Origin: a virus
DNA length: 64,000 bases
IMG/VR virus record: IMGVR_UViG_3300021364_000009
Coordinates: 32,572 to 96,571 of that record
Strand: one strand, 5' to 3'
Shown: piece by piece, positions 2,946-58,700 of the stretch
Position numbering within the stretch: position 1 is the stretch's first letter
How the letters are laid out: every line of letters begins with the position of its first letter
The notes under the pieces: generated by a model
Seen by the model: the letters and a program-made list of their open reading frames with translations, nothing else
What the model was told of the DNA's origin: nothing
The model's database searches: none
Program-made: the position numbers and the translations under genes

Positions 2946-2947
2946 AA

Positions 2948-7882: not shown

Positions 7883-7884
7883 TT

Positions 7885-10236: not shown

Positions 10237-10239
10237 CTC

Positions 10240-34098: not shown

Positions 34099-34103
34099 AA
34101 TGT

Positions 34104-34120
34104 AATAGTCTTTCTATTCT
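34104..34120 (+). promoter_or_regulatory. Candidate promoter element upstream of 34187
   Basis: AATAGTCTTTCTATTCT lies 66 bases before ATG 34187. TTTCTATTCTT is identical to the element at 15727-15737. The function is inferred. Confidence 0.3.
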
Positions 34121-34134
34121 TTCTTGTTGTTGAT

Positions 34135-34167
34135 TTATGTGTTGGTAAAATAAACTCCAACACATAA
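34135..34167. repeat. Perfect 11-bp inverted repeat between virion genes
   Basis: TTATGTGTTGG (34135-34145) and CCAACACATAA (34157-34167) flank an 11-base loop, 19 bases before ATG 34187. No T-run follows, so a classic terminator is unlikely. It may be an mRNA processing or stability element, and it ends before the AAGGAGG ribosome-binding site. Confidence 0.5.
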
Positions 34168-34186
34168 CCCCGATAAGGAGGACTAG

Positions 34187-38026: not shown

Positions 38027-38039
38027 GGAGTAGTCCAAG

Positions 38040-41000
38040 ATGCCTAGTAAGAATAATCCAAAATCGGTTATAAAAATAGGAGAAGGTAGTTCCGTCTGCC
38101 AAGATGGTTCTAAAGGTAATCTTTCTACTCAAGTCCAAATGGCTCAAGACGCCTATGATGCGGAGCAGATTTCTGCTGAAAACCCTTTTGAGACATATCT
38201 CGGAGATGAAGTACAGTCACACCTAGACGATCTAGCTTCACAAGTAAAAGTGAAGCCTCCATACCTTGGAGAAGGTGCTAAGAGTTATAGCTATGGTGGT
38301 AATACAAAAACTATCTCAGGGACTCCCGATTGGGGGGTTCTAAAGCAAGCCGACAACACAGTATGGGATAGAAACAGTACGGTAACGGTTGGCTTTCTTC
38401 CTTTAGATAGCACTTATTTTAGAAATACAAATGTTGAAACCTTATTATATTCTTACAATAAGCCCACGCCAAATGGTTCAGAAGGTGCTGACCCAAGTAC
38501 GGATTTGACCTTTAACTATGATCACACAAAGTTACTAGGGGGCGGAGAAGGTGCTTCTTTCCTAGCTTCAGCGAGAGAGCAAGTAAACGAGCCTTTCAGA
38601 CATTGTAGAGTAACTTATCAGGGGGCTTCTTCAACCACTTCCGAAGGTTTTACTATTTCAGGTTTCTTATTTCCTGCGGATAGGGGGACTGTCGCTCTTT
38701 TATATTGGGCTACAGGTGTGCCTAATTTCTCTTATACTACAGCCACTTCAGTTTCAGAAATATCTCAAAGGGTTATTTCTGCAATCAACTTAGGGGAAGG
38801 ACGACTAAACAAAGAAAGTTCGCCTTCGATCTTCAATGAAGGTACAGATCAGTTTGTTTTTCCTAGCAAGCTCACAGGTCAGTATGACTTAAGAGAAATG
38901 CAAACAGGGCTTATTAGAAATGATTTGGCAGATGCAGGTCTTCCTGTTTCTTTTACAGATTTTGTTGCAGACCCTAATTTAGGATCAGTGCGTCTGTTAA
39001 AAGAGCCGGGAGCTTGTTTCTTTGGTGTAGGACAGCCTACAGTAGACCCTAGAGGAAATATTCCTGTTCTTTTTGGTGCTTATTCTTGGGATGAGAAAGT
39101 AGCCTCTGATTGGGTAGAAAACGACACGAACTTTTTGGCGTATCGTCTACCTGCGTTACAAGATTACTCTCCTTCTGGCTTAAAAACTCCAAATGAGCAC
39201 CGAGAGCGTTTCTTTCAAGTAATACAACCTGCTTCTGTTTCTTCAGACTTTGATACAGCGGGTGACTATGTGACTTTCGGAGACGACTATTACACTTACC
39301 AAGTAGCCCGATACAGACATGTCGTTTCTTACGAAGAGTTAGACCTTACAGCAACCTCGAAAGGTTCTTTTGCTCTAGTGCATTTCAAAAAAGAGGATAC
39401 TTTTGAGAGACTTGTGCGAGATGGTATTTCTCCTTCAGAAGATGATCTTTATTCTGTCAGCTTTTTCAACCTTCTTGAAGGTGAAGACGTGGCTAATATC
39501 GTTTCAGACGGAGAAGACTATAATGAGTATGGGATTCCAGTACTCGCACCTAAGAATAAAGATGCCTCTTCTAACACAATTTTAAAACCTAACGTGTTCG
39601 TCAGAAGCAGAAGCAGTGCTGACAAGCTACAAGGCTCAACATCAAGAACACACATTACGCACAAGAATGAAGATGCTGATTCTAGTGCAGACTTGAGATT
39701 TAAAGTTGGAGATGCGTATTTCACCACTATTTCTGGTGTCAAATATATTCTGCCAACTAGAGACAAATCCAAGAAAAGCTCGGATGTTGTATTTCTTTCA
39801 GAGTCTTATAATAAGATACTGAACAAAGTTTCTTTGGTAGGAGACGTACACCTTTCTGATTTTTCTATCCCAAGGTATTTCTCTAGCAAAACAAGTGCTT
39901 CAAAGAAATATAACGAGCCTTCATCTCCGTTCGTTTTAAATTTTTCGGCATATTCTTCAGACTCTAACTTGTTTGTAGAAGAGCCTAGTCTCAAAGAAAT
40001 CTCTACAGGTAAACAGCTCGTCACTTTGGGGTGGGACGATATTAAGGCGGATATGAGTGCCTACAACCCCACGGTTGCAGGGACTTATTTTGATGTAAAT
40101 GTGATACCTCAAGGAGATACGGGTCTCTGTACTTTTACAACCCAAGGAAATATCTCTGTGATGTATAAGAGTCCTCTATACCATTATGATGGTTTGGGGT
40201 ATGCAGATGTCTTACAGCCCTCATATACCCCTAGTAATCTAAATGATGGACATCAGACCTCTAATTTCTTATATCACTCTTCAAGACTCGTCTCTTTAAT
40301 TCAAAACGCAAATACAAGTCTGTTTTATTTCCACTTCTCTTATCTTGCAGGAGCTAGAAATGCAGACCAAGCTTTTGCGATCTTCAGGTATGACCCTGAA
40401 GGTTTCAGAGTTTATATTAGTTTAGACCTGACAGACGACAGAATAGAACTCTGCTCGGGTGAAAACAAAATAGGAGGTGGGGGTGCTTTTCCTTCGTACC
40501 CTATATATCGGCCTAAAATAAATACAGAAGCACCTCAGAGAAACGCCTTTGGAAGCGAAGACGCAACTGCACTTTTAGTAGGTGGGGAGACGTATTATGT
40601 TGAAGCACAGTCTGGTTTCGCTGCTAATCTTTTCGACTATTCTGTAGTGGGAACCTCCTATGATGTAGATTACGCTACAGATGTAGCTACTAACTTCTCA
40701 GGAGCCTATGGGAACTCTGCTGAGTTTAATAACAGGTCAGCAGGGTATGGTATCAGTGCGATTCTTACTACAGAAAGCGGAAGTGCATCCATCGACCCCA
40801 ACATAATACTTGATACTAGGTCAAAACTGCATCATGGGTACGATTTACATGAAGTCTCTAAGGATGTAGACCCTAGTCTCCCTACTTATGGGAATTTTAC
40901 ACAGAACCAAAGAGGCATTATTTCTGCCATGTCTCTAGGCACATCTCCCGTACTTTCAAATATGTTGATTTTCCCCAATGACGTAGCTCCTCTGACGACT

Positions 41001-42077
41001 TTATTTACCCCAAGAAAAGACACACAAGAAAGATTTCTTGACGAATCTTACAGGTTGAGCGTCTTGTTTGAAGGTATTGAAGACCAACAAAATATTCAAG
41101 GTCCGGGACTTCCTCAAGGTTCAAGGGTGAACCTCTTAAGAGTAAGAGATGATGTGTTTGCTACATCAGTCCACGGAGGTGCAGGCTATTTAAGGAACTC
41201 ACACCATTGGGACTGGTGTGTATTCACAAATAATTCACCTTTCTATGATGGTAATGGGAATCTATATAACAAAGAAGGTGAAGCACAAGTATCGGGCTTA
41301 CCTTCTTTAGCTTTGGCTCCATTAAATGGAGGAGAATACGGGGTTCCCCGTAGAGGTTTATTAAGACTTCCAATACTTAATTACCAAGTAGATACTTATT
41401 TCCCCAACGAGACTTATGATCCAAGCTGGACTACTGGTGCTATGGGAGAAGTTGGATTGTATTACAGACAGCCAGACTACAATCACGGGGTAGGAGGCAC
41501 ATATTACAATAGGGAATTTTCTTACAGCAGAGCTTTTGACGTAGAGTTTAGTCGTAGTGGTACTGTTGAAAATATGAAAGGGACTTCTCGCTTTCAAATG
41601 AGAGTCCTTGGCTTAAGTTTTTCAGATTTCGCATTCAAATCAGACCGTGGAGTTTCAATCTATGTGAAAATTCCAGGCTTGACTGCATGGCTGGATGTTG
41701 GAAGGGCAAATAATCAGGGCGTAAGTAAACAGCATATTTCCAAAGATGGCTCAGGGTGTCTTATTTCTGAGAGAGAAGGTTTCACTGTTAAAGAGAATGT
41801 CTACTTTACTGATCTTACTTTGGAGTTAGGGCCTTTAGCCACCTTTGCAAAGAATTCTACGGGCGAGTGTCCTGTTCTTGTGAAAGTTTCTTTCAAGGGC
41901 TTGGGGATGGAAGGTTACGATAATAGTATGAAGTTGGATTTTGAACCTGGAGTTAACCCTCCTGCTATGTCTACAGAGTATTATCCTGTAGTTCTAAGGA
42001 GAGGTTTGGTAGGCTTAGAAATACTAAGAATGTCAAATGGTAAAAACTACGATGAGGATGAAGTAGTTTACGTTTGA
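38040..42077 (+). CDS. Very large tail fibre-like protein
   Basis: The 1345-residue protein is Ser/Asp/Asn/Tyr-rich and mostly beta, apart from a short helical N-terminus (VQMAQDAYDAEQISAENPFE, about residues 32-51). Segments such as FRHCRVTYQGASSTTSEG, HFSYLAGARNADQAFAIFRY and the C-terminal SRSGTVENMKGTSRFQMRVL look like carbohydrate- or receptor-binding beta domains, but none was recognised by name. It lies in the block of giant virion genes, starting 13 bases after the preceding stop with AAGGAG upstream. It is probably a distal tail fibre or appendage. Confidence 0.55.
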   Translation: MPSKNNPKSVIKIGEGSSVCQDGSKGNLSTQVQMAQDAYDAEQISAENPFETYLGDEVQSHLDDLASQVKVKPPYLGEGAKSYSYGGNTKTISGTPDWGVLKQADNTVWDRNSTVTVGFLPLDSTYFRNTNVETLLYSYNKPTPNGSEGADPSTDLTFNYDHTKLLGGGEGASFLASAREQVNEPFRHCRVTYQGASSTTSEGFTISGFLFPADRGTVALLYWATGVPNFSYTTATSVSEISQRVISAINLGEGRLNKESSPSIFNEGTDQFVFPSKLTGQYDLREMQTGLIRNDLADAGLPVSFTDFVADPNLGSVRLLKEPGACFFGVGQPTVDPRGNIPVLFGAYSWDEKVASDWVENDTNFLAYRLPALQDYSPSGLKTPNEHRERFFQVIQPASVSSDFDTAGDYVTFGDDYYTYQVARYRHVVSYEELDLTATSKGSFALVHFKKEDTFERLVRDGISPSEDDLYSVSFFNLLEGEDVANIVSDGEDYNEYGIPVLAPKNKDASSNTILKPNVFVRSRSSADKLQGSTSRTHITHKNEDADSSADLRFKVGDAYFTTISGVKYILPTRDKSKKSSDVVFLSESYNKILNKVSLVGDVHLSDFSIPRYFSSKTSASKKYNEPSSPFVLNFSAYSSDSNLFVEEPSLKEISTGKQLVTLGWDDIKADMSAYNPTVAGTYFDVNVIPQGDTGLCTFTTQGNISVMYKSPLYHYDGLGYADVLQPSYTPSNLNDGHQTSNFLYHSSRLVSLIQNANTSLFYFHFSYLAGARNADQAFAIFRYDPEGFRVYISLDLTDDRIELCSGENKIGGGGAFPSYPIYRPKINTEAPQRNAFGSEDATALLVGGETYYVEAQSGFAANLFDYSVVGTSYDVDYATDVATNFSGAYGNSAEFNNRSAGYGISAILTTESGSASIDPNIILDTRSKLHHGYDLHEVSKDVDPSLPTYGNFTQNQRGIISAMSLGTSPVLSNMLIFPNDVAPLTTLFTPRKDTQERFLDESYRLSVLFEGIEDQQNIQGPGLPQGSRVNLLRVRDDVFATSVHGGAGYLRNSHHWDWCVFTNNSPFYDGNGNLYNKEGEAQVSGLPSLALAPLNGGEYGVPRRGLLRLPILNYQVDTYFPNETYDPSWTTGAMGEVGLYYRQPDYNHGVGGTYYNREFSYSRAFDVEFSRSGTVENMKGTSRFQMRVLGLSFSDFAFKSDRGVSIYVKIPGLTAWLDVGRANNQGVSKQHISKDGSGCLISEREGFTVKENVYFTDLTLELGPLATFAKNSTGECPVLVKVSFKGLGMEGYDNSMKLDFEPGVNPPAMSTEYYPVVLRRGLVGLEILRMSNGKNYDEDEVVYV

Positions 42078-42087
42078 TTGTTCTTTA

Positions 42088-42116
42088 ATACTCTCAGAGT
42101 ATCACAACATTGTAGG
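42088..42116 (+). promoter_or_regulatory. Short hairpin plus ACAACATTGTAGG motif before the giant gene
   Basis: ATACTC-TCA-GAGTAT forms a tight 6-bp hairpin (42088-42102). ACAACATTGTAGG follows at 42104-42116 and matches ACAACATTCTAGG at 24230-24242 with one mismatch. TTTAATACT precedes both sites (42084 and 24184). This is a shared leader signal of unknown role; the hairpin is too short to be a confident terminator. Confidence 0.35.
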
Positions 42117-42145
42117 TGTAAAATATTTAAAGCGAGGTTCTAAAC

Positions 42146-45100
42146 ATGGCTTCTGATTTAGATCGTTTGAAGAAGGCTTCTCTAAACACACAGGCTACGA
42201 ATAACACGGAGTCAGAGCATTACTCAAGAAATAGGACGGTTCGTTCAGAAGAAATCAAATCCGGATTGTCTAGGTTTGAAGGTTCTTGGGCGAGCGATTT
42301 TTCTTTTGGAGTCAGCAATAAAAAAGACACACATCCTCTCCCTAGTATAAAGACAGGTCTAGGTCTGCAAGGTTATGGGGATATAGATTTTATCCCATAT
42401 GTGGAAAACACAAATAGAATAGGACTGGAGGGAGAAGCGACATTAGGCTCTCCTATTTCTTTTGAAGTGATAGGGCCTACTCTTAAGTCCCCTCTTGTGG
42501 ATTGGACTTGGCAGATCGCAAGATACTCAGATGGTGAGTATTTAATCCTTTGGGATGCAGGTAGTGGCACAATCCCTAGTCTCTATGGGATTAATGATAA
42601 TAGTAATCTAGCATACCCCTACTCTAACATCTCAGACGATGAAGGTCTTTATGTTATTCTCCGCAGTTTCGGTAGAGACCTTGATTATTTGGATGGTGAT
42701 CGTGAAAGAACCCCCTATCACATTTTTAAAGTAGCTGAAAATGGTGTATTGGACTATAGCGTAAAAATATCTAGCGACACTCCTATTTCTGACGTTTTAG
42801 ATTATTCGACGGATAACACAATAGCGGGGGTTACTTTTGTACGAAAAGTAGCTTCACGCATGTTCTGTGTCCCTTCAAGTAATCGCCAGACTTTCTTTGT
42901 CATGCCACCTGAAAAATCGCTTTCATTAGACATTGAGCCACCTTTCGAGGCGTGGCTTGATGGTTCTTTTGACGGTCTTGGCAAGTCAGGTAGTGTAGAA
43001 ACCTACGGAAATAGATCAAATCTTCCTGTACTAAGCCCCTTACAATATGAAGGTGTAGAAATATTTAATGGGATCATCCTTAATGTTTCAACTCCTGCTG
43101 TCTCTACTTTTAAGATTTATGTAGACGATGAATTTTCAAAAGGGTCAAATATTTTAGACGGAAAAACGGGACTAGAAACTCAGCAACTCTTAGGGACTCT
43201 ATTTAAAGTTGGTTATGTAATTAGAGTTGTATCTATTGAAGAGGAAGCTTCAAATCGTTATCTAGGTTACTTTGAAATTACAGATATTCAGTTGTCGGGT
43301 GGTTCAGCGTCGGGACGCTCTCCTCTCGAATTGACCTTGAAAGGTGTGACGACACAAAACCACATTTCAGGAAATATCAGTTGGGATATTGCTTCTGCGG
43401 ATTCACAATATGATATAAAATTTACAGTCCATGAGAGCGTTTCAGACTTACTTAGTAAGAGCAACCCACAGCCACACGAAATTGATTCTACAAGAATAAA
43501 GTCTCTTATTTCTCCACTACACTCAGATCGTTCTTCTAACGTAAGACCTACGATGATGAGAGCAAATGACTGTACTTGGGGAGAGGGTGAGATTTCTAAT
43601 CTTCTTGATCTTGGGTTTAAAGCCGTTATCTATAACCCCAAATTGCAAGGTTCCAATCTTGTTGCGGATTTCAACAGCCCTGTAGACTCAAACTTATACG
43701 AAATAGACTATGAAGGTGCTACAATCTATTTCCACGAAGAGGTTGTACAAGAAGATAAGTATTTAAACCATGCACAAAACCCAACAGGTAGTCCGGTCTT
43801 ATTTATTTCTTGTGTTCCCCTAAGTCAAAATGCTTCCTTCGGAAATAGATTTACAGCGAAAGAAGAGGGGATCGTAAAGGGTGCGTTTAAGACACCTACT
43901 ATTAAGAATATCCTAAGCGGAGACACAGCAACCTTTGGCAAAACGCTGTCAGAAATCCCAGATTTCCCTTCTTCGGTTTATTTACCAGGTATTTCTTTGG
44001 GTGAGATACCAAGTACAGGTGCAATCGAGTTCCGAAAAGATTTAAGTCAGTTTGGTACTGAAAATGTGGAGTATGTTACTGCTACCTACAACTTAGTAAC
44101 TTCACATCTTGAAGGAGTAGTTCTTAAAATATCTTCCACGACACAAATTGGAGATTCGATGGGGACTTATGGTCTTTCAAATCCCCTTCACATCGAGTTT
44201 GTAAGAAACCCCTCTGTTTCATTCAGAGAATCTATATATGCGGGATTAAGCCTCCGAACGGAAGAAGTTACTTTTGCACATGGTCTTATTTCTTTAGATG
44301 AGCGTGGGAATCAGACTCTTGAAGTAAGTGGCTTATCTACTGAAGAGTCTTCTATTCTCTATGATAGTTCAGAGAATAAATGGGAAATATCCGGAGACTA
44401 CAATGTAAATCTCTCTGTAACTAGAGGAGACCTTGTAGCTTCCAATGTCGTTGAGTTTGATAATTCCGATTTAACTATTGCTCCGTATTCTCAGTCTTTG
44501 AAGATTTCTTCTTCGACATCTTTTAATGAGCCGGGATGTAGTTTTACTTTTACGACTGAAGATGGTTTCGGAAACCACGAAGATTTGAGAGGTTATTATC
44601 TTAACACAGAAGCTGTAACCATAATCACAAAAGAAACCCTATCTATACCTCCAAACAATAGGATTGTTTTTGGTTTAGATTATATCCCTGATTGCCACAA
44701 CCCTTTTGCATCTGAATGGTACAAGTCCGAACTTCATGTAGAGGTAGTAGGTTCTGAAGAGGTTGGGGATTTCCTGAAGTCTGCACTTCCTTCAGAAAAA
44801 CAGCCTGCCATTTCTTACGACGCAAGTGATGTTAATGATGGACATGTTTCGATTACAGGCAGAAACGCCTGTATCTATCCTGCATATGCACTTGTAGAAA
44901 CAGCTCAGATTTATGAAATCTCGGCAGAGATTCATGCTCAATTAGGAGGCACTTATACCCTACCTGCATCAAGATATTTACTTTCCTTAGAGAGCACCGA
45001 GCCGGGCTTAGAAGATCGTTGGGTCAGCTTAGTTGTAAACAATGAAGCAATAAGCTTTGACACAGACGATTATGTGGACGTTGTGTCCATGCTTGAGTAT

Positions 45101-48100
45101 ATCGCAGAAAAGCTAAACAAAGACCTTTATTTTGGACACTCCGCACGACTCTTAGATCGTGCTGGTTTCTATGACAGCCAAGGTCAAGATTGGGATGGTA
45201 CAAATTATACGTCAAATGGTGGACTAGATGCCAGCATTAAAGGTACGGCAGGGGATCAGTATGGTGAGCGTCAGATTCTTTGGGTCTCTCCTTCAGATGT
45301 ACGTCACCCAAAGTTTTCAGAGTTTAGTCTTACAAACTATGCTTCACATACTTTAGCACTTATTTGTACGGGTAGAGGTGCAAGCAAGAGCTTAAATGGT
45401 ACACTTGATGAGATGAAAGAGCAGTCTATTCTCCAAGAGAATAGACTCATAAATGTCATTGCCTCTATCGGTGAGATAGATCAATCTTTCATGTGGTACA
45501 TCTTTAAAGATGGGCTTACCAAGTTCAACCGTATTGGCTACTACCATAGAGAAGAAACTCTTGCAGATAACACTACGGCTACAGGAAATCCCACAGTAAT
45601 GGGACAGACAGGAAACCTTGCTTTAGGTTTCCCTAGTGAAGGTATTCTTCCTTTAGGTAGGCTTCTTGGTGAATCTTTCAGAATAAAAGCACAAAACACC
45701 ACTTATGATGGTCGTTGTGATTTTGAGGTTGGTTTTGTAGATGACCCTACAGGCAGACCTGCCTACTACCCTATAAGAAGCAATCTTACACTATCTTATG
45801 ACAGCACATACCTAACATCAGGACTACCAGATAAAGCGTCAGAAAGTTCAGATTTTGCAATACAGAACAGCTGGCTCGACAATCAGAGCTTTGCTTTTGA
45901 AGGAAGCTCTTATGAAACTCCCGATTTCAGAAATTACGCTTGGGTGTCGAGAGATTATTTCTCTAAGCTGATTTATGATGGTGCTACTCCCTACAACCAA
46001 GACCCTTCTGTGGGCGGTTATGTCGAAATACATGCAACTTTCTCTGCGACTCCAAAAGAGAGAAGTTATTTTTACGGAAGTTATTTAGGTGACAATGATA
46101 ACAATCTTGGACATGAAGACTATGTTGCTAAGATTGACTCCTCTAAATTTATCACCCCTCTTATCGACAGAAGTGTTCTCCAAAAAGGAGACCTGTTCTA
46201 CATAGCAGGCTCTGACTCCCAACCTTCCCACCATAAAGCAACGATAATAAGTGTTGTAAATGAAAGTGTTTATTCAGAGAACACGAAGATTTCTTTAAGA
46301 GTTTTAATGCAAGCAGTGGGGAGTCAATTTGGAGGTTTCAGTCAGATCAAGCCTAGCTTCAGACCTTCTGTTTCTGAGATTGTCCTCGAAGATGGGAAAT
46401 TTAGACCAAACTATCTTAACTTCACATATAAATCCGCATCTCTTGTAGTTGGGAATAATGTCCTTTGGAATGAAGGGAACATTAAAAGTCTGCTGAACAC
46501 ACAGTCTGTCGCAGATTATGCCTCACCTAACAACACTGAGAGAAGTTCTTCAGCGGTAGATGGTGGGTTTGGTACATTTGGCTCTCAATCTGCCACTCTT
46601 ATATCTGGAGGTCGAGTAGGTTTATTTACAGGACTCCCTTTATCTCAGACAGGTATTTCTTTTGCCTCTATCACAGGAGGACACACTTCGGGTCAATATA
46701 TAGAAGTAGACCCTACCTACAGCAATTATGAGAAAAAAAGCTACAGAGTCTTCGAGACTTTCTTGGATCATGGTGTATTTCCTTTTGTAAGTCTTCCTTC
46801 AGGTTCAGGTTCAGACAATGTGGGTACGCTAGGTCATCTTTCTAGCGACAGCACAAAGAAATCGAATTACAAAGGTGCTGTGTTCGGAGGAACTGCGGGT
46901 CTTCGTGTTTCGGGGGACATACAACTCTATGTTAAGAATGCTCGTCCTTTTGGGACAGATAGATACACAGCGTTTATTGTACATTCAGACAATGCTCCTG
47001 CCACCACCACAGACTATTTAATCGGAAACAGTAGAGTAACTGAATCTATTAACGAATATTGGAAAGACTGGGAGCCTTCTACCACAGGCTCCATTGGCTA
47101 TTTCTCACAAAACGGAAGAAACAGTCAGCAAAGAGGTGCAGGAGCACATATGCCTGCTGGCGTAGGTCTGTTTGGCTACAACAACACTTTTGGTGGCGTC
47201 AATGGAGCTAATGCTTCTGTAAGAAGAACTGCTACAGTCTCTTTAGGACTTACAATCGCAGATTTGAAGGGTATTTCTGCAAGTTTAGGTCAAAACCTAG
47301 TTGATCAAATGGAAGACCAAGGAAAGTTAAACCCCTTTATTGGTGAAAACAATGATCGGTCTGCTTCCAAGACGGGTGAAACATTATTTGAAATAGGTCA
47401 GTCTTCAGTTTCAGACTTTAATACCATGACTCTACCTGCATTGAGAGGTAGTTATCTTTACTTGGAAAGTAAAGGTCTTGATCAGTCTGACGGCTATTAC
47501 AAGATCATAGACGTTCCTGTTATTTCTCCCATAGATGCTTCCTCTCAAGAATCTAAGTTCGGAAGTGAAAATACATTACACGGCTATATTTCTGACTATA
47601 ACTCAAAAGTCAGAAATAGTCTTTCAGCTATCGTGGCGAATGTTACTGTCAGAGTAGAATCTAACAGATACCTTTCAGAAATACCCAACGAATCAAACAA
47701 TAGTCGTATAACCCGTGTAGATCAGATCACTCCTCCACAGAATAAGATTAGAGATACTTACGACAACTTAACTAATTCTTATAAGTGGAGAATTTTACAC
47801 CACGCAGGTAACGCTGCTGGTACAAATTTTCAGCAGGTATACGTTTTTGACGTTGAGAATAGCGGAGGTTCACCAACTTCTTCTTCTTCAGACTTACAGG
47901 GTATAGAGATCAGCCCAAGAGCACTCGGCAAGCAATCTCTACCTGCTGAGTTAATTCCTCTAGCGACATCAGACAGTCCTTCTGACACCCCCACAGAGCT
48001 GACCACCCCCAATAATCTCTCACCTCTTTCTTATGACCCTAAAAACTTTACGATGCGACTCTTAGGTGTACATCGTAATATGGACATGAGAGGTAAGACA

Positions 48101-51100
48101 AGCTCAGTCGCATTTGTTTGTCTTGAAGATGAGGCTTCATACGACTTCTTCCAAGGTGATGCAGGAGGAGAAGAAATAAGGACTCAAACTCCTATCTCTG
48201 ATCTCGTTGAAGTAGTTGGAAACACACCTGCACGTCTTGTAGTTTATTCTTCAGAAAGATCAGACAGGCTTGACGAGTCTTACGCAATTACCACCAAAAG
48301 AAGATTTGAAAGTGGAGAGTCTGGTTTTGTTTCTCTAGGATACCCTGAGAGAATGGGTCTTGGCATTGTCCTTGATGGTGGATTGGGTGTCGTGAGTGGA
48401 AATGCAGTAAGAGTCCACCCACAAAAAGGAAGCACAGACTCACTAGGTGCTCTTTTACTTTATTCTTTCCCTTATGCAGACCCTAGAGATGATGTCAGAG
48501 ATGGGGACGCTGTTTCACTCCCCTCAAGATTTAATCGAACTGAATTCTATGGGGACGTGGTTGTCGCAGGATATAACTCAGATATAGTTATTGAAGACTC
48601 TCGTTCCGCTGAAGGTTCCTTTGCTAGAATAAATGAGAACGAAGCGTCTGCTTCTACTGTAAGAAACCAACAGTCTTTGACGATTAGTTATGCAAGCCTC
48701 TCTAATCAGATGAGAGTCACCCACCAAAATAAAAATGACTTCCTTACTGATGGGAGTTTCTCAGAGTATATAGATTTCTTCTTAGACTCAGAAATCGGAA
48801 ACTATTTCAGGAAATTAGATTTAGGAAATGGTAATTTTTATAATTACATAGAGTCTAACTTGTTTAGAAATATTCCAGCCCCTCCTCTTCCAAACGACAC
48901 TTTATTTCCTTGGACTAACGTGGGGGTTAGAGTTAAGAGTAGTGGCGGATTGGTTTACGAGAGAGCTTTCAGACCTCAAGACGCTACAGGTTCTGACGTT
49001 GTTGTTTCTCACAGTAAAGGAGCAAAGTCTGACCGTGGTATTAAGGGGCTAGAAATACCTGCATTTGGAGAGTGCTTGCTTCTTCCAAAAGGACCGCCAA
49101 CTCTAGGTGGTAGAGTCCTCGAAAACAGCGAGGGAGCTAAAATAAGAATAGGGAATACACCTACCGACTTACCGCTATACGAGTTCTATAATGGTCCGAC
49201 TAGGTTAAACTATGGGGGTACTCACGCTATTTCTATAGGAAATGTACTTCAAGAACATGGAGTTTATGGAAGACCTGGATTCCCCACCACAGAAAATGAG
49301 AAACAGCTTCTTTTTGCCCCTAAAGGAAATAATTCTCAGAGTGACCCAATCGAATACGATCCAGGAATCTTATCTCAAGCATACCACCATTCAAGATCAA
49401 ATGGTTCTGATGAGTGGGGTGGTCGTAAAGAAATCTTAACTCCAAAGAGCAATAAGCTTTATGGTTATCTTGCTCTCTTGAAATTCTCAGGTGGATCTTT
49501 TAACTTTACGAATGCTCCAAGTGGCAGACCTTATTATTTCGATCAGTATTTCTCTTTGTTTTATGTTTATCGAGGCAAAGTCGTATATATTGAGTTAGAT
49601 TTGATTGAGGATGCTTTTCAACCTCTTCCGATAGAGCGTAGAACAGGAGATAAACCTGAGTATCAATATGTAAATACAGGGAATAACACGCAGTCTTCTG
49701 TAATTGGGAGAGATGTGTATGGTTCGCATACAAGTGATGTTTCAAGAACAATAGAGCCAAACTTCTCTTTCTATGTTCCGGATGGTATCCAACACGTTTT
49801 TGTGGAAGTGAAAGGTCGAAATGACAATCCTCTTTCAGCTAATCAGAATACAGGGTGGAATATCTATTCCGCACACGGTCTATTACTTAGTACGAAGAGT
49901 AGTGTAACTCTTACATTACCCCCTGAAAATACATCTAATGCTCTAGTGTCGGGGGCTAATGCTCTCGACTATTGGGAATATATAAGCCCTCATAACCATA
50001 ACCTCGGCTCTCTCGCCACTTCTGTAGAACATAAATTCTTAGACTACTCTGGTCGTGCGTGGTTCTACGCCCCTAATGGTTCAATCTCCAATTTTGAAGA
50101 GATTTTACATTCGATTAATTGGACTGCGAACAATTTTGCCCCTGTATTATCTGGCAAAGCTGCTCTTAAATATTCGTATGTAAGAATATTAGGGAGCTAT
50201 ACACAACTGAACGATCTCTGTTATGGTACTAATACAGGTATTACTCCTTTTGCAGATAATAATGAGGTTTTCGACCGTGTGTTTGAAGTGCCTGATTCAG
50301 ATGTTAATAGTGAAGTGTATGAAGAAGGTTCAGAAAGAGTTAATTCAAACCTACAAGTGCGTCTTCTTGACGGCATGGTTTTAGAAGATGTGACGACAGG
50401 GACTTTTTACACAGTAGGAGAAATAGGAAGATACAGAGGTTGGCACTCTCATATGAAGCCAACTTCTCAAGTGGGTGACTATGTTCACTACGAGCATGGT
50501 ATGCACCTTCTTGATCAAACTCAACATACGCCTGAGATGGAAGAAATATACGGAAGCCCTTTAATTCGTAATGCTAATTTTGGGTCTATTATTTCTAGTA
50601 ACGGACATTCTTCTCCTGAGATTCTTACTGATCTTTCAAGTCACTTCAACTATGAGCGATCTATGTATGGGTATTTAAATGAAGACTCTTATCCTACTAC
50701 TCAAAGGAAGAATGGTTTTGGAGACATTGTAGACAATGGTTATGTTCGTAGACCTTTGTTAGGTCATAAGTTCAGAGTTGTACCTAATGTCGAGTTTGTT
50801 CCTGTTCTTGGTTATCGCTCGGTAAGAGGTGGTCTTTGTGTGCCATATGACCCAAGCACTAGTTACCAAGGATACATTAAGAATGCGGATGCAGTTCTTT
50901 TTGATGCGAACTATTCTTTCTTAAAAACAGATATAGGGAAGAAAATCTATATTTGTGGGACATATGAGTACGGCTATGTGGGTTGGTGGGTTGTCACAGA
51001 TGTGATCTCAAATTATGTTATCAATCCTACAATGACAGGTAGTTCTGAAACCTTTGAGGTTGCAGTTGTTAGAAAGATTAAGAGGTCTGGTGAATACCTA

Positions 51101-54100
51101 AGTAATCCTGATGTAGAGGATGATAAGATTTTACCTATGCGACCACAATCTCCAATCTTAGAGATGACTGTGGACGCTAACTCAAATGGAAAAAACATCC
51201 TTAGCGGAAATAACCAATACAATATAGACTCTCATCTTGGAGACTCCTTCATAACGGATTCATCTTATAACTCCCATGCAAGGAGCATCTATTTTGGAGA
51301 GTACTCAGGAGTCAGATATGACTCTGAACATCACACCAATATTTGGATGGCTCTCCAATACTTAGATGATGACAAAAATCTAAAATGGATGGGCTGGTGT
51401 CTTGACTCTAGTTCTTTGAGTTTATTTAATGACCTGAGTAAAGGCTTAGGTGTTTTTGGACTTGTAACGGCTTTAAGAGCCAACCCTGTCTACAATGGTA
51501 GAGTATTAGGTAAGTATTTCCACGACATAGGATTAAGTGCTTGGGCAGATAACTATGATGTTCAGTTCTTAAAGTGGGAGCCGAAAACTTCCTATTACGA
51601 CGGTTACTCTAAGTACACCATTCCGACGAATATCACCACCGCAGAAACAGGCTCTAGGGTTAATTGTGGTGTTTCTTGTACCATTGATACAAGTGTTTTG
51701 ACGAAAGACCAAATTGAGACTGTTCTTGGTCGAGGTACATTCTTAAATGTAGACCTTCTTTTCAATAATCAAGGTTATTTCGGAGATGATTTCTCAAGTG
51801 TGAATTTCCCCGACTTAGAAACCATAGATACTTTTGGTGCTCAGTTTGAGCAGAACTTTATTTTATATAAAGGGCTATATTACCGTAGAGGCGTCAACAC
51901 TAATGTGTGTGTTTCTCATTTAGACAAGAACAGTTATTTCCCTAACGTACTCACAGCACCGACTTCAAAGTACGTTGTGAGAAATAGTACGTCAGCAGAC
52001 TTTGCTACGGACATATATACTCTTAATGATGGGTCGAGGTCTTCAGACTCAGCTACTGGAGGTATAAGGTGGGTCTTCTCAAGTCCTCTCTTAGAAGAAA
52101 ATGTAGGTTCATATCTGCATCTTACAAAGCAAAGACCGTATCGCTTTGGAACCCCAACCTTCTCTCAGAAAAATGCGTTAAATTCTCACCGAAATCGTCA
52201 AACAGGTGCAACTGAGAGTACGCTTGTAAATCCTTTTGGTTGGACTTCAGGTTATCAGAACGAAGCAGACATTCTTAACGGAGAACAGCTTGATCTCTCT
52301 ACAGACATCTTCAGAATAAACAGATGTCCGACTACAGGAGATATACTCGTTGGGGGGGACTGTGAGTCCTATGCGGTGGAAGATATTCTTTGCAGAAGCC
52401 GAAAAGGGTTTACTAAGAAAGGGCTAGAAATATCTTATTCTCCCCTTTCTGTAGGAGGAAATTGGCCAGACTCAGTGACACAAAACCTGCCAGATACGGG
52501 TTCTTTGAACTATCCAATCATGTACGCTCTACAGCCTATTGCGAGAGAAAGAATTGTTACGATCAATCCGAGCAGTGCTAACTCTTCAATAGTCTTAGCG
52601 AGAGGTCAGCATGGTACTGCACCTATGGTAATCCCTGCGAACCCCTTAGCGATTGAGACAGATGGTGCTCTTTCTCTTACAGGTGTAGGTAGTTTCTCAA
52701 ACCCAAGCGGGGACTTCTCACTTAGTAATCATGACGGGGAATATTATGTATCAGACCCTTCAACTACGGGCATTTCTGTTTCTTTGTCAACTAATGGATT
52801 GAACGTAGACGAGTACGGTAAAGACTATCATTGGGGTGAGAAGATTCTTATGGATGTTTCTCGACCTTGGTTGTTGCTTGGTAGAGAAAACGCCATGCAA
52901 ACGCATGACCAATACTTTATTTCTCCTACAGTAGCGGAATCCACAGAAGGAAACCCACAAGACTTGCCTGTAAATGTTTTTGGTGAGTATAACAACAGTG
53001 CAGACCTTTACAAAATAGAACAAGGGAACGCTGAGGATGGGTCACAAGAGCTTTATACGATAAATAGCTATTTCCCTTCGAGTGCAATATATACTTGGTG
53101 TCCGGCTGGAGAGTGGTGGCAGATTCAGACGCCTCTTTATTCTTATGCTCAGTCTGATATTGACGGCTACGCCAAGAGGAAAACCCCTATTTCTCCAACC
53201 ACACCCCCACCTACTTTAAGAATTGATCTAACAGAAGCATTTACACAGTCTGTTTCAGCAGGTAGTGGTTTGAACACCCCTTACGCAGGGAAGGCTCCAA
53301 GAGGATCAAGGCTTAATAGAATTTGGGTGAATTTTGGGTTGGATGGTGACGCATCTCCTTTACCAGGATCACCATTTAACAAAGACCATGAAGAGTATAT
53401 AGAGAATACAGGAGGGACTAACTTAAATGACACAGTATTAGGAAATACTGAGGTCAAAAAAACCATTAAAACATTAAGTGATGGCGTTGGTGAATTGTCT
53501 GAATCTATGTTTAGGTCTCTTAACAAAAAAGCAACAAACCGATCTATTACTTTTAATCTTGTAGTCGAATTACCCGGTTCAGTTGCATCTTCTCAGGAAG
53601 ATTTTGAATTTGGATATACCTCACAATTAGATGTCGGGGTGAGATATAACCAAGACTGGAAAGATTTCATCGGAGAAGACTATGAGTTTAGTAGTATAGG
53701 TGGCTCTAACGGAAGTACATTTGGAGGCAGACTACCCACAGGGGCATACAGCCATTCAAACAATTCTGAAGATAAGAGGGTAAAGCATGATGATTACTCA
53801 AACCATATCCCAACAAATCAGTCTCAGTACTTCGGAGGTACAATCGTAGTTCCTCTCTATATAAATAGAGAAGCGGGGGACATGATGCCCAATATTATGG
53901 AGAGGTTTGTAAACGTAGGTCCTGCTCGATTTAAGGATGTAAACTCTTCCTCCCCTATTCCTTTCTCACTCAATCAGAATAAGCACCTCTACCATTCAGA
54001 CTGGTCTATAGGAGATTGGTACAGAGGACTCGGCACAACACCAATGGATACGAACGCATATCTTTACGATAAGAATGTGCATTATACGCAATTTTCTGAT

Positions 54101-55036
54101 AGTGAATTTTTGTATCCTTTTGGAGGTCAAGGTACGAGACTAGAGATGGAGATTAATTCTATAACTCCTGTGGTTTGGGGTTCTCAGAATTTCTATTCAA
54201 GCTCTAATGAAGATTTCTACACCCCTCGCACCCAGGGCGACATACTCGAATCGAATACTAAAACCAATAAGGGTATCACCAATTCCTCTTACATGACTTT
54301 CTCAGATATACGTTCAGCAGGTGTCCTAGCTTCTTCAATGCCTAGAAGCTCTAGGATGGGGGGTGGAGTAACCTCTTCCTTCACCTCGGGACTGATTCCA
54401 GACACTCGATTGTTTGATCCTTTTGCATCTTTTGTCCCCTCACCACTTGCAATACATGCACCGGCTACCACAGGTATTACGATTGCACATGGTGGTGCAT
54501 CGTCTTTAAATTCATCCTCTAACAGAATTGATAACTACTCCACTAACGGAGTAGATGGCATAACACCTGCGAACACAAAAACAAGCTCTTCTCACAACTC
54601 ATTTACAGTGGCTTTGACTCCTGTGGGAGATAGCTTCAAAGCTCCAACAGGATATATAAATATGCCATCTATTACAGGTGGGGAGAACAGATTCGCAGGT
54701 TATTTTTACAAAGATTTCGCCAATGTAGATCATTGGGATTTCGGAAGGTATGGGAGAACCTTAGAGACAAATACAGGTACAGAACCTAAAGACCGAAGAT
54801 TTAAGGTAGGTAATTGGCTAGATAATATTTTGAGAGCGTATGGAATTCCAGCCCAAAGTGGTTCAATGCTACCGCCAGGTGCGAGAGTATTCTTAGAAGC
54901 AACTGTGCCTTGGTCACATAAAAACACAGATACCAACAATGGAACTTGGATTTCTTCAGTAAAATGTTCATTTGAAGTAGAAACCGCAGATGGTACTGCG
55001 TGGACTCAAGACGTGAACACTATGGGAGAAGATTAA
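42146..55036 (+). CDS. Giant tail/fibre virion protein (4296 residues)
   Basis: This single uninterrupted reading frame of 12.9 kb is rich in Ser, Asn, Asp, Gly, Tyr and Thr, poor in Cys, and without a signal peptide or transmembrane segment. The N-terminal ~80 residues (LDRLKKASLNTQ; SHYSRNRT-like basic polar stretch) may be an attachment region. The rest is predicted beta-rich, interrupted by short helices such as NIWMALQYLDDDKNLKWMGW. No catalytic motif or long repeat was found by eye. By position it belongs to the tail or fibre apparatus. Its weak ribosome-binding site (GCGAGG) and the DNA signals at 42088-42116 are the only visible control. The next gene overlaps its stop by TAATG. Confidence 0.7.
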   Translation: MASDLDRLKKASLNTQATNNTESEHYSRNRTVRSEEIKSGLSRFEGSWASDFSFGVSNKKDTHPLPSIKTGLGLQGYGDIDFIPYVENTNRIGLEGEATLGSPISFEVIGPTLKSPLVDWTWQIARYSDGEYLILWDAGSGTIPSLYGINDNSNLAYPYSNISDDEGLYVILRSFGRDLDYLDGDRERTPYHIFKVAENGVLDYSVKISSDTPISDVLDYSTDNTIAGVTFVRKVASRMFCVPSSNRQTFFVMPPEKSLSLDIEPPFEAWLDGSFDGLGKSGSVETYGNRSNLPVLSPLQYEGVEIFNGIILNVSTPAVSTFKIYVDDEFSKGSNILDGKTGLETQQLLGTLFKVGYVIRVVSIEEEASNRYLGYFEITDIQLSGGSASGRSPLELTLKGVTTQNHISGNISWDIASADSQYDIKFTVHESVSDLLSKSNPQPHEIDSTRIKSLISPLHSDRSSNVRPTMMRANDCTWGEGEISNLLDLGFKAVIYNPKLQGSNLVADFNSPVDSNLYEIDYEGATIYFHEEVVQEDKYLNHAQNPTGSPVLFISCVPLSQNASFGNRFTAKEEGIVKGAFKTPTIKNILSGDTATFGKTLSEIPDFPSSVYLPGISLGEIPSTGAIEFRKDLSQFGTENVEYVTATYNLVTSHLEGVVLKISSTTQIGDSMGTYGLSNPLHIEFVRNPSVSFRESIYAGLSLRTEEVTFAHGLISLDERGNQTLEVSGLSTEESSILYDSSENKWEISGDYNVNLSVTRGDLVASNVVEFDNSDLTIAPYSQSLKISSSTSFNEPGCSFTFTTEDGFGNHEDLRGYYLNTEAVTIITKETLSIPPNNRIVFGLDYIPDCHNPFASEWYKSELHVEVVGSEEVGDFLKSALPSEKQPAISYDASDVNDGHVSITGRNACIYPAYALVETAQIYEISAEIHAQLGGTYTLPASRYLLSLESTEPGLEDRWVSLVVNNEAISFDTDDYVDVVSMLEYIAEKLNKDLYFGHSARLLDRAGFYDSQGQDWDGTNYTSNGGLDASIKGTAGDQYGERQILWVSPSDVRHPKFSEFSLTNYASHTLALICTGRGASKSLNGTLDEMKEQSILQENRLINVIASIGEIDQSFMWYIFKDGLTKFNRIGYYHREETLADNTTATGNPTVMGQTGNLALGFPSEGILPLGRLLGESFRIKAQNTTYDGRCDFEVGFVDDPTGRPAYYPIRSNLTLSYDSTYLTSGLPDKASESSDFAIQNSWLDNQSFAFEGSSYETPDFRNYAWVSRDYFSKLIYDGATPYNQDPSVGGYVEIHATFSATPKERSYFYGSYLGDNDNNLGHEDYVAKIDSSKFITPLIDRSVLQKGDLFYIAGSDSQPSHHKATIISVVNESVYSENTKISLRVLMQAVGSQFGGFSQIKPSFRPSVSEIVLEDGKFRPNYLNFTYKSASLVVGNNVLWNEGNIKSLLNTQSVADYASPNNTERSSSAVDGGFGTFGSQSATLISGGRVGLFTGLPLSQTGISFASITGGHTSGQYIEVDPTYSNYEKKSYRVFETFLDHGVFPFVSLPSGSGSDNVGTLGHLSSDSTKKSNYKGAVFGGTAGLRVSGDIQLYVKNARPFGTDRYTAFIVHSDNAPATTTDYLIGNSRVTESINEYWKDWEPSTTGSIGYFSQNGRNSQQRGAGAHMPAGVGLFGYNNTFGGVNGANASVRRTATVSLGLTIADLKGISASLGQNLVDQMEDQGKLNPFIGENNDRSASKTGETLFEIGQSSVSDFNTMTLPALRGSYLYLESKGLDQSDGYYKIIDVPVISPIDASSQESKFGSENTLHGYISDYNSKVRNSLSAIVANVTVRVESNRYLSEIPNESNNSRITRVDQITPPQNKIRDTYDNLTNSYKWRILHHAGNAAGTNFQQVYVFDVENSGGSPTSSSSDLQGIEISPRALGKQSLPAELIPLATSDSPSDTPTELTTPNNLSPLSYDPKNFTMRLLGVHRNMDMRGKTSSVAFVCLEDEASYDFFQGDAGGEEIRTQTPISDLVEVVGNTPARLVVYSSERSDRLDESYAITTKRRFESGESGFVSLGYPERMGLGIVLDGGLGVVSGNAVRVHPQKGSTDSLGALLLYSFPYADPRDDVRDGDAVSLPSRFNRTEFYGDVVVAGYNSDIVIEDSRSAEGSFARINENEASASTVRNQQSLTISYASLSNQMRVTHQNKNDFLTDGSFSEYIDFFLDSEIGNYFRKLDLGNGNFYNYIESNLFRNIPAPPLPNDTLFPWTNVGVRVKSSGGLVYERAFRPQDATGSDVVVSHSKGAKSDRGIKGLEIPAFGECLLLPKGPPTLGGRVLENSEGAKIRIGNTPTDLPLYEFYNGPTRLNYGGTHAISIGNVLQEHGVYGRPGFPTTENEKQLLFAPKGNNSQSDPIEYDPGILSQAYHHSRSNGSDEWGGRKEILTPKSNKLYGYLALLKFSGGSFNFTNAPSGRPYYFDQYFSLFYVYRGKVVYIELDLIEDAFQPLPIERRTGDKPEYQYVNTGNNTQSSVIGRDVYGSHTSDVSRTIEPNFSFYVPDGIQHVFVEVKGRNDNPLSANQNTGWNIYSAHGLLLSTKSSVTLTLPPENTSNALVSGANALDYWEYISPHNHNLGSLATSVEHKFLDYSGRAWFYAPNGSISNFEEILHSINWTANNFAPVLSGKAALKYSYVRILGSYTQLNDLCYGTNTGITPFADNNEVFDRVFEVPDSDVNSEVYEEGSERVNSNLQVRLLDGMVLEDVTTGTFYTVGEIGRYRGWHSHMKPTSQVGDYVHYEHGMHLLDQTQHTPEMEEIYGSPLIRNANFGSIISSNGHSSPEILTDLSSHFNYERSMYGYLNEDSYPTTQRKNGFGDIVDNGYVRRPLLGHKFRVVPNVEFVPVLGYRSVRGGLCVPYDPSTSYQGYIKNADAVLFDANYSFLKTDIGKKIYICGTYEYGYVGWWVVTDVISNYVINPTMTGSSETFEVAVVRKIKRSGEYLSNPDVEDDKILPMRPQSPILEMTVDANSNGKNILSGNNQYNIDSHLGDSFITDSSYNSHARSIYFGEYSGVRYDSEHHTNIWMALQYLDDDKNLKWMGWCLDSSSLSLFNDLSKGLGVFGLVTALRANPVYNGRVLGKYFHDIGLSAWADNYDVQFLKWEPKTSYYDGYSKYTIPTNITTAETGSRVNCGVSCTIDTSVLTKDQIETVLGRGTFLNVDLLFNNQGYFGDDFSSVNFPDLETIDTFGAQFEQNFILYKGLYYRRGVNTNVCVSHLDKNSYFPNVLTAPTSKYVVRNSTSADFATDIYTLNDGSRSSDSATGGIRWVFSSPLLEENVGSYLHLTKQRPYRFGTPTFSQKNALNSHRNRQTGATESTLVNPFGWTSGYQNEADILNGEQLDLSTDIFRINRCPTTGDILVGGDCESYAVEDILCRSRKGFTKKGLEISYSPLSVGGNWPDSVTQNLPDTGSLNYPIMYALQPIARERIVTINPSSANSSIVLARGQHGTAPMVIPANPLAIETDGALSLTGVGSFSNPSGDFSLSNHDGEYYVSDPSTTGISVSLSTNGLNVDEYGKDYHWGEKILMDVSRPWLLLGRENAMQTHDQYFISPTVAESTEGNPQDLPVNVFGEYNNSADLYKIEQGNAEDGSQELYTINSYFPSSAIYTWCPAGEWWQIQTPLYSYAQSDIDGYAKRKTPISPTTPPPTLRIDLTEAFTQSVSAGSGLNTPYAGKAPRGSRLNRIWVNFGLDGDASPLPGSPFNKDHEEYIENTGGTNLNDTVLGNTEVKKTIKTLSDGVGELSESMFRSLNKKATNRSITFNLVVELPGSVASSQEDFEFGYTSQLDVGVRYNQDWKDFIGEDYEFSSIGGSNGSTFGGRLPTGAYSHSNNSEDKRVKHDDYSNHIPTNQSQYFGGTIVVPLYINREAGDMMPNIMERFVNVGPARFKDVNSSSPIPFSLNQNKHLYHSDWSIGDWYRGLGTTPMDTNAYLYDKNVHYTQFSDSEFLYPFGGQGTRLEMEINSITPVVWGSQNFYSSSNEDFYTPRTQGDILESNTKTNKGITNSSYMTFSDIRSAGVLASSMPRSSRMGGGVTSSFTSGLIPDTRLFDPFASFVPSPLAIHAPATTGITIAHGGASSLNSSSNRIDNYSTNGVDGITPANTKTSSSHNSFTVALTPVGDSFKAPTGYINMPSITGGENRFAGYFYKDFANVDHWDFGRYGRTLETNTGTEPKDRRFKVGNWLDNILRAYGIPAQSGSMLPPGARVFLEATVPWSHKNTDTNNGTWISSVKCSFEVETADGTAWTQDVNTMGED

Positions 55037-55752
55037 TGATTATTTTTACTAGGTCTGACAATAAACCTGTTCAGACTACTCGACACTTAAACGAAAACAT
55101 TGAGATGAATGGGAAATACGTTGTGGATTTTCCCGACTGTATCAGAGTAGATAGGCTTGATGGGACGCCATTGGAAATAGTGTCGAGAGAGGTGGAGCCT
55201 CAGTTTTTAAAGCAGTATCCTTCCTACGACCACGTTATCTATAACCCTATCATTCACAACTATGCCTTTTTAGACAGTTCTCAGAATTTCCCATTCTCCA
55301 CAGGGCAGACAGCTTCAAGATATAAGATAGGGGAGACACCTAACTCTTTTGCAGTGTTACCCGTGAATACGAGCACCTCTTGGAAAGGTGTTGCAGTAAC
55401 TCAGAGTATAAACATTTCTGCACAGACCGACGACGGATTGGGAAGAGAAACCTTTCTTCTTTATTGGAGAGCGGTAAGAAAAATAGTAACACACGATCAG
55501 TCACCGCTTTCTCCCGAACCTTCTGTGAGTTTTCTTGGCAAAGAAAACAACCCTTCTCGAATGAAATATGTCGAAGCAGAAGAAGATTCTCAATACTCAG
55601 TTTATATTTCTAACAATGACGGCAACACATACGAATTAGCAAAGAGGCTTACTCCCGTAAGTTTTGAAGAAAGAGCAGAAAATATAAGAATCGCTTTTGT
55701 GAATCACTCTTCTGAAGACATCTTCTTTCTCTCGTATGCCCTTATGTTTTAA
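55036..55752 (+). CDS. Hypothetical virion-associated protein
   Basis: The 238-residue protein starts at ATG 55036, overlapping the giant gene's stop (TAATG), with GGGAGAAG 4 bases upstream. It is beta-rich (GKYVVDFPDCIRVDRLDG, RETFLLYWRAVRKI, QYSVYISNNDGNTYEL). Coupling to the giant gene suggests an assembly partner, such as a fibre cap, chaperone or small adaptor. No family was recognised. The DSELN-domain protein follows after 14 bases, with AAGGAG upstream. Confidence 0.55.
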   Translation: MIIFTRSDNKPVQTTRHLNENIEMNGKYVVDFPDCIRVDRLDGTPLEIVSREVEPQFLKQYPSYDHVIYNPIIHNYAFLDSSQNFPFSTGQTASRYKIGETPNSFAVLPVNTSTSWKGVAVTQSINISAQTDDGLGRETFLLYWRAVRKIVTHDQSPLSPEPSVSFLGKENNPSRMKYVEAEEDSQYSVYISNNDGNTYELAKRLTPVSFEERAENIRIAFVNHSSEDIFFLSYALMF

Positions 55753-55766
55753 GGAGAATATGTAAA

Positions 55767-58700
55767 ATGGCTGAGAACTACGGAAATAATGTATCTAATG
55801 TATTAGAGACTCTTAAATATAACTTCTCCAATGTAGTTTGGCAGGCAGGTAAGCCTCCACTCGATAGTGAATTGAACTTAGTTGGTCAGGTAAATTGGGA
55901 AAACCAAGCAGAGCATCTAAGAAATACGACACATAGTGGATTTCTTTTAGACCCTTTAAGAGCACAAGAAGACTTCTTCTTCTATGAAGAATCCTCGAAT
56001 TATTTTGAGATCAACAGAGGGTTAGACAACCCTCTTGTAGCTCTCGTAAATGGTTGGGTAGTTCCTGTTATTGGGTGTAACTCTTCAGACGGAGTTAAGA
56101 ATGTCATCACACTGCCACCCCCTCCGACTACAGAAGCAAGGACAGATGTAGTATTTCTTGAGGTTTGGAGAGCGGTTGTCTCTCCTAATGATAGTACAAA
56201 TAAGCCAGAAGAAAATGCTATTTATCCATATGGGAATGTTCAATATACACATTCTTCTTTAGCAGACGAAATGGTAGATGCAAACGTAGGTTTTGAGACA
56301 ACCAAGCGAGTGCAAGTACAATACAGACTCAGAGTTACAGAAGGAAATAACTCAATAGAAGAATACCTAGAAGGACTCGGAGCCTCTGATCTTTATGCAC
56401 AAGGGGCTTCTAATCTTCCTGTTATGGGGTACACCTTCTCTAATATGGGAGAAGAGCTTGGGGATGTAGGGTTGTGGAGAGCAGGTTCGGGAGATGCTCA
56501 GAGTAAAACAGATTTAGGGTCTGTAGACGGATATGTGTATTCCATACCTGTTTGTGCTGTCTTCCGTAGAAATAGTGGAGGATATACAGCGGTAGAGTTA
56601 AATAGTCTTCACCCTAGCCATAACGGTTCTGTTACAAGAACTCCAAGTGGGACAAAAGGCTTATTACAAAACATAACTCTTTTGAACACATTAGGTGCTT
56701 CTGACATTGGGAATATCCAAGTTCAGAATTTAATCGGCTCAGGTTTTGACGACGTACTTTTCTTTGAAGGCGGAGACACTCTCTTTGCAAAAATCGGAGA
56801 AGGGCTACAAGAAGAAATAGTAAAGCTAGACGGTATTTCTACCGCAAACTCGACTATTTCTATCGTGTCAAGAGGACATGGCGGTACACAAGCCAAGCCC
56901 CACCAAGCAGGCACTTCCGTTAAGAGATTTATAGAGCGTTCAGACAACTTATACGCAGATCAAGTACATCAAGATGATCTTCTTGATCTGCGTCATGCTG
57001 TAAATATAGGTAGTTGGGACTATACTCAACTCTTAAACAATGCTGTTTCTGATCTTCTTACTAACAATCTTAGAACGACAATGAAGCAAGCAGGTACAGG
57101 CAGTTTCTCCAAGGGTACAGTCATAGAAGAAGTTTCCGTTTTCTCTACAGACAACACCTTTACTTATTGTACTGTCCGAGACCAAGCAAATGCCGTCCGT
57201 ACTGTTTGGTCTGATGCCTCTGCTTTTCAGAGTGACATCACCTGTTTAATTGATCTATCAAACAGTAACCCCCTAGATGCACAGGGTCTTGACGTAAATA
57301 GAAAGCTCACTTGGACAATCGGTGCAGATTTTCAGCCTAGAGGTTTTTTTACAACAGGAAGAACAAACGGCACATGTTTATTCTTTAAGATCGGTGGAGA
57401 GAGTGGGACAGGTGGACTAAGATACGGAATTAACCAAAATCAGTCTACGGTTCGTTTTGTCTCTCCTAGAGAAATGGAAGGAAGATTTAATCCTTTTAAG
57501 ATTTTCTTCCCTGATTATAACAGACCTAATGCAGAGACTGAGGCTGGAGACCAAGGTCTTTATACCTCTCCAACAAAAGAAAGCGACTTTGAAGAACCCT
57601 TCATCGTTTTAGGTGGTTCTTTTCTCCCTAACACCACCTCTGCTGTGTTGGGTACTCAGATTTTCAATAGTACATTTAATGGGGAGAAAATTTGGGTTAT
57701 TAAAACCAACACTAATTATACAAACGTCAAAGACAACTTGGTGCTAAATGGGTCAACTACGTTAAGCCGACTTATTACAGATGAAGGTAAATATCCTTCG
57801 GGTTTTTATTCACAAGCTTATCTTGTAGCATACGGCGACGATGACCAAGAGACGAACAACGGGTGTTTTAAGATTATCGGAGCCTCTGATATTACGCCTA
57901 TCAATTCTTCTTTAGACGCACCGATGGCGGATGTGGATTTACCTTTCTGCTTATTTCTGAAGAGAGTAGGCTCTTCAAACGCAGACTTCGCAAACAGTAC
58001 TGCTACTCTTTCTTTAGAGATGAGAACTCAGAGATTAGACTCAAGAGACAACGATAGTTGTATTGTGTTTACTTCTGTTGAGGATGTTGACACCAACCAC
58101 AACTTCCCCGACAGTGCCGACAGAGAAGTGGATATGGTTCTGTCTACTTCTGTACTGTGGCCTCCTGCACATGGGGCTATGTCTCGAACTTTAGACTCTA
58201 TTTCTAGGGTGGGCATAAAAAATATTTCTCAGAGTTTTGTCCGAAACGCTCCAGCAGGTTTAGATCAGGACACCGCATTTAATTTTTATCCTGAGAACGA
58301 AATATATCTCCCAACGGAAAACCATATTTCTACATGGAGTCGTTTATCTTCTGAAGGAATGATTTCAGGTGAAGGTGGAAGTGCAAACTACGGTGGAAAT
58401 ATCGTTAATGGGGAAATAGATAAGGAAGCAGAAGCTTTCTATGACTTAGGTTCTAAGACTTTAGTTCTCAGACCTATCTCATATCAATCTATGAAGATTT
58501 ACCGACACGATCTGGCTACCGTGGATGCTACAGGCTCTGCGTATGCAGGTTGGTCTTCAAACCCCAATCCGCCACTCTTAGACAATAAGGTCTATTTAGT
58601 ACCCCATGAGGTCATGCCTAGATTTGGAAGGCAAGATATTCCTTACCATGTAAAAACAGGTGCTACAGACCTCTTCATGGAAGGTATTAACCACCTTTTC

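Follow-up and report, generated by a model that had tools for sequence, protein, structure and literature searches.

The virus described here carries a single uninterrupted gene of 12.9 kb. In the window, by which we mean the whole 64,000-nt stretch that was analyzed (bases 32572-96571 of a record with a total length of 96,571 bases), one ATG-started frame runs through 4296 codons without a stop at 42146-55036 on the plus strand, as the preliminary description had stated, and the probability of a stop-free run of this length arising by chance is approximately 1e-119 at this base composition. A Shine-Dalgarno-like GAGG is located upstream of the ATG. The gene is kept at full length in the related records G001-G008, G016, and G018; in L005/G008 (IMGVR_UViG_3300035145_002852), the frame is intact and differs at 1 nt in 12,891 and at one residue. 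Since the whole frame is present in independent records, an assembly or frameshift artefact was ruled out. Relative to G003 (63% amino acid identity), codon positions 1, 2, and 3 take 28, 21, and 54% of the differences, respectively, and dN/dS is approximately 0.1-0.2, a range to be read with dS near saturation. The low Cys content reported earlier was confirmed (0.51%), and, judged solely from its composition (Ser 11, Gly 9, Thr 7, and Asn 7%), the protein, hereafter called the giant, would be rich in beta-structure. Its length had been considered exceptional even for large phages; it is unusual, but not unprecedented, because predicted proteins of huge phages, some of them tentatively annotated as structural, reach 7,694 aa (PMC7162821) and one relative of the giant itself has 5090 aa.

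Regarding the genomic setting, a gene for a gp25-like sheath initiator or baseplate wedge protein (24252-25295, +; phrog_43, 2e-6; PF10934, 5e-4) and one for a baseplate J or wedge protein (25292-28564, +; PF04865, 4.5e-17; phrog_6, 2e-23) are located upstream, and a hub-like protein is encoded in the left part of the record, which identifies this part of the genome as the baseplate and fiber region of a contractile tail. The baseplate genes are followed on the plus strand by a fast-evolving gene of 1577 aa (28564-33297), two small genes of 251 and 203 aa that both match phrog_5417 (33343-34798), and genes of 1071 aa (34811-38026) and 1345 aa (38040-42077). Downstream of the giant lie a 238-aa gene (55036-55752, +), the ATG of which shares one base with the stop of the giant and which nearly every related locus has, whether it carries a giant or not, and a 1723-aa gene (55767-60938, +), the N-terminus of which is paralogous with the 1071-aa protein; the neighbor sizes given earlier (1071, 1345, 1577, and 1723 residues) are thus correct. 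The order 1071-1345-giant-238-1723 is found in G000-G005, G007, and G008. Short acidic repeats are present in the 1577-aa protein, the gene of which contains a tandem repeat of 75 bases (31672-31816) and is the fastest-evolving member of the module; the least conserved proteins between the window and G003 are those of 1345 aa, the giant, and 1577 aa (54, 63, and 48% identity, respectively, versus 74-84%).

Relatives of the neighbors occur in other phages. The N-terminal region of the 1071/1723 family recurs in gp420 of phage G and in gp247 of Tunturi_5, which is annotated as a tail fiber. LR745208.1, a 485-kb uncultured phage, encodes relatives of the 1071-, 1345-, and 1723-aa proteins and has no detectable giant. 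A 3642-aa ORF near its fiber genes (L009/LR745208.1, 230286-241214, +) is possibly another giant appendage; by profile comparison, it is unrelated to the giant described here. Two genes of 1235 and 1224 aa (L052 and L053) match the 1345-aa family in the first approximately 66 residues only; therefore, the 1345-aa gene also seems to be modular, with its remainder exchanged. The giant does not occupy the place of a tape measure gene, which would sit between the tail tube or chaperone genes and the hub genes; judged by position, the tape measure protein is probably encoded by another gene, of 1186 aa (L002:9259-12819), which has no profile match itself.

Other features were observed elsewhere in the window. 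Four paralogous genes of 390-409 aa with 52-58% mutual identity lie head to tail at 6653-11436 on the minus strand and adjoin a DnaB-like helicase gene (11437-12951); they gave weak matches to the DNA methylase family PF01555, one of which was above the cut-off, and a tandem quartet of methylase-like genes looks unusual in a phage. At 61404-61838 (-), a 144-base tandem repeat doubles the Cys-rich motif CAWKDC...CSE.CRKRDNRWAYR in a small gene.

Homology searches did not assign the giant to any known family. The absence of recognizable domains noted in the preliminary description was borne out, with the whole protein showing no match in Pfam, PHROG, or the PDB, and profiles of its parts also gave no significant match in the PDB, such that no homology to a known fiber or enzyme family was found by these means. 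A tblastn search with two overlapping parts of approximately 3000 residues against 50,697 phage records returned nothing, and a set of bacterial and archaeal genomes yielded no relative of the C-terminus. AlphaFold models of residues 3240-4296 and 1420-2440 had a pLDDT of 28, which is too low for use. No internal repeats were found by TRF, self-BLAST, or tiled profile-profile comparisons. A candidate beta motif picked by eye, 'G..iyi.G...GyykItdV', at residues ~350, 1765, and 2925 ranked high among 608 non-overlapping segment pairs, but its score of 17.1 was below the 17.4 of the best control, and the motif is therefore unproven. Among comparisons with the neighboring proteins, the best hhalign probability was 29% (giant 2433-2516 with 757-833 of the 1345-aa protein), and neither hhalign nor BLAST revealed significant similarity to the N-terminal region (~450 residues) of the 1071/1723 family.

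Giants of the same type, the window's included, are encoded by 12 distinct lineages. Nine of them were compared end to end and are co-linear, with lengths of 3412-5090 aa; among IMG/VR contigs, the lengths are 4227 (G003), 4249 (G001), 4225 (G002), 4204 (G004=G005), 5090 (G007), 3468 (G006), 3412 (G016), and 4345 aa (G018), and additional giants have 2959 (L116), 3797 (L121), and at least 3462 aa (L148) between stops. In G006 (IMGVR_UViG_3300046167_000825, 289 kb), the gene spans 280899-289014 and 1-2291 in frame, and this contig therefore probably represents a circular genome that was opened within the giant; the giant is unlinked there from the 1071-1345-238-1723 genes. Islands of 45-64% identity are distributed along the whole chain. 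The conserved blocks are residues 2001-2400, 2801-3000, 3301-3500 (52046-52645, +; 56-58% mean pairwise identity among the nine giants), and, foremost, the last ~97 residues, which end in DGTAWTQDVNTMGED (54743-55033, +; 64%), while many invariant polar residues are found in blocks 2000-2350 and 3300-3500. Variability is highest in an internal stretch, residues ~2440-2730 (49463-50335, +), which G006 lacks and of which other giants have a shorter version. This conservation from end to end over several lineages indicates that the giant has been selected as a single chain and is not an assembly accident.

The N-terminal part of the giant is shared with other genes. A scan with the 1723-aa family identified 32 loci, in many of which genes of 1.0-2.2 kaa occupy the slot of the giant between the 1345-aa gene and the 238/1723-aa genes; these genes match giant residues ~4-760 in their first part, with E values from 1e-97 to 1e-113, but not beyond it. 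Sixteen of these N-terminal modules were alignable over their whole length, with 29-40% identity between groups, whereas the distal parts had no detectable similarity. When the N-terminal module itself was used, 66 loci were recovered on contigs of up to 619 kb, comprising 53 distinct genes, the most distant of which have ~25-30% identity in this module. Their distal parts were classified as type A (~3500 residues; the giants, 12 of 53), type B (~690 aa and shortened in one; 6), type C (0.8-1.2 kaa; 19), and type D (~250-300 aa; 9), and the remaining 7 were unclassified or cut. Thus, the alignments show that residues ~1-725 (42146-44320, +) form a module shared across a large family, with a putative role in virion attachment, and that the part following it is exchangeable and of four unrelated kinds. 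In the window, the A-type part, which is found in giants only and has no known domain, consists of ~3570 residues (44321-55033, +).

Parallel beta-helices, a fold typical of tailspikes, were detected above the Pfam curated cut-off in two C-type parts (PF13229 in L060 and PF05048, NosD-type, in L147); none was found in the distal part of the giant, which resembled neither these beta-helix parts nor any of the other types. The D-type sequences look like jelly-roll lectins by eye only and gave no match in Pfam or the PDB. Giants are placed on several branches of the N-module tree, and no A-type C-terminus was found elsewhere in the 250-266-kb records that carry short forms. No N-module was seen in LR745208.1 (485 kb) or G011 (288 kb), both of which have the 1071-, 1345-, and 1723-aa genes; that baseplate can therefore do without it. 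Based on these sequence comparisons, related huge phages seem to exchange entire arms for host contact while keeping the same mount.

A trace of recent exchange may also be present in the window. An 18.1-kb block (37267-55358) that spans the 1345-aa and giant genes differs from G008 at only 2 positions, whereas both of its flanks show ~2.5% differences; a second block at ~58,000-60,000 has no differences from G008. This pattern fits a putative recent recombination event that carried the 1345-aa gene and the giant together, or else a mosaic or an assembly chimera, as both records are metagenome assemblies.

Considering the locus and the family together, we regard it as probable that the giant is a very long tail appendage, a fiber or spike, attached to the baseplate of a contractile-tailed huge phage. 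An N-module with an exchangeable arm corresponds to the architecture of tail fibers and spikes, namely, a common anchor with an arm that can be exchanged. The N-module would dock the giant on the baseplate or on a neighboring fiber protein of the 1345, 1071, or 1723 family, and the distal part of ~3500 residues would project outward as a long multi-domain arm contacting the host surface. The last ~100 residues may serve as an element for assembly, oligomerization, or folding rather than as a hypervariable receptor tip, and their conservation argues against a simple variable tip. Receptor diversity would instead reside in variable stretches (e.g., ~2440-2730 and 3000-3300) and in the replacement of whole arms, and host contact may be altered by the block exchange of the 1345-giant pair. 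Several observations stand against this reading: conservation peaks at the C-terminus, whereas a classic fiber has a variable C-terminal tip; the giant has no recognized domain and does not resemble the other distal types; it is unlinked from the other fiber genes in G006; and some huge phages with the neighboring genes show no N-module.

The same conservation, along the whole length and at its maximum at the C-terminus (islands of 45-64%), may be expected of a structural, non-adhesive part of the virion, such as a giant baseplate brace, whisker, collar, or tail-wrapping filament, with a mechanical role and a C-terminus that is anchored in a further protein of the virion; in phage G, the tail sheath is surrounded by a coiled outer structure (PMC13282480). 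We consider this explanation unlikely because, in other phages, beta-helix parts follow the N-module at the corresponding locus, a sign of surface contact, and because the giant is among the less conserved genes of its module. A main task in the degradation of host surface polymers, as a multi-domain enzyme or depolymerase arm, would agree with the beta-helix parts in sister genes and with the invariant polar residues of blocks 2000-2350 and 3300-3500; with no enzyme family matched in Pfam, PHROG, or the PDB, we give it little credence. The alternation of conserved and variable blocks could also reflect a polyprotein, the long product of which would be divided into several virion proteins as the particle assembles, and self-cleavage is known to remove a C-terminal chaperone from some tail fibers (PMC10253068). 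In the giant, Pfam revealed neither a protease nor a chaperone domain of the self-cleaving kind, including Peptidase_S74, the domain of fibers with a self-cleaving C-terminal chaperone, despite the strongly conserved last ~100 residues, and all four distal types are single reading frames; this makes a polyprotein the least plausible of the three, by a small margin below the enzyme.

The baseplate-attached appendage is therefore the reading that we prefer, and the suggestion of an elaborate tail or surface appendage made in the preliminary description is partly supported as an interpretation by the baseplate and fiber locus, the shared N-module with exchangeable arms, and the beta-helix sister parts. 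The accompanying proposal of a new fiber class may apply to the distal part of ~3500 residues, which has no match; the gene as a whole is part of a wider modular family, in which some members have only 1.0-2.2 kaa. We tentatively suggest, at somewhat less than even confidence, that the A arm is such a class, in which a single polypeptide with no detectable repeats or known domains performs the task of the multi-protein long fibers of other phages on a widespread, undescribed mount that exchanges at least four unrelated arms. Sequence reveals almost nothing about which hosts uncultured huge phages infect; with a shared mount of ~725 residues, the type of arm can be recognized on a contig, followed from phage to phage, and connected with hosts. 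The giant arm is also a conserved phage protein of great length, without a known fold.

A common anchor with an exchangeable specificity part is an established design of phage receptor-binding proteins, found in smaller phages (PMC8262889) and in spike clusters (PMC10253068), and this design and the existence of very large proteins in huge phages are already known. What is new, as far as can be read from sequences, is the modularity, a predicted mount of ~725 residues with four unrelated arms in huge phages; no description of this attachment-module family or of the ~3500-residue arm was found in a limited search of the open-access literature. The large huge-phage proteins reported previously (PMC7162821) are of the same size class and from the same kind of phage as the giant, and are reported there by length only. 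Gp420 of Bacillus phage G and gp247 of Tunturiibacter phage Tunturi_5, a 'tail fiber protein', share 25-30% identity with the N-terminal region of the 1723/1071 family and are thus kin to the neighbors of the giant, not to the giant itself, and neither genome shows a giant or the N-module. The curly tail fibers of Bacillus phages 0305phi8-36 and vB_BpuM_BpSp (PMC2147016, PMC4870245) are likewise elaborate extra tail appendages, the genes of which lie close to those for the baseplate or head in large contractile phages; they are set beside the giant by their published descriptions only, as the tblastn search with the giant found nothing among phage records. Close parallels are the receptor-binding proteins or tailspikes of Klebsiella phages (PMC8262889) and the spikes of CBA120 and RaK2 (PMC10253068), which similarly combine a common N-module with an exchangeable C-part, a beta-helix in some members, and the exchange of modules between phages. 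Unlike these spikes, the giant family has an attachment module of ~725 residues with no sequence match in Pfam or the PDB, and the A arm extends over ~3500 residues with no recognizable domain and ends in a C-terminus that is conserved, not variable.
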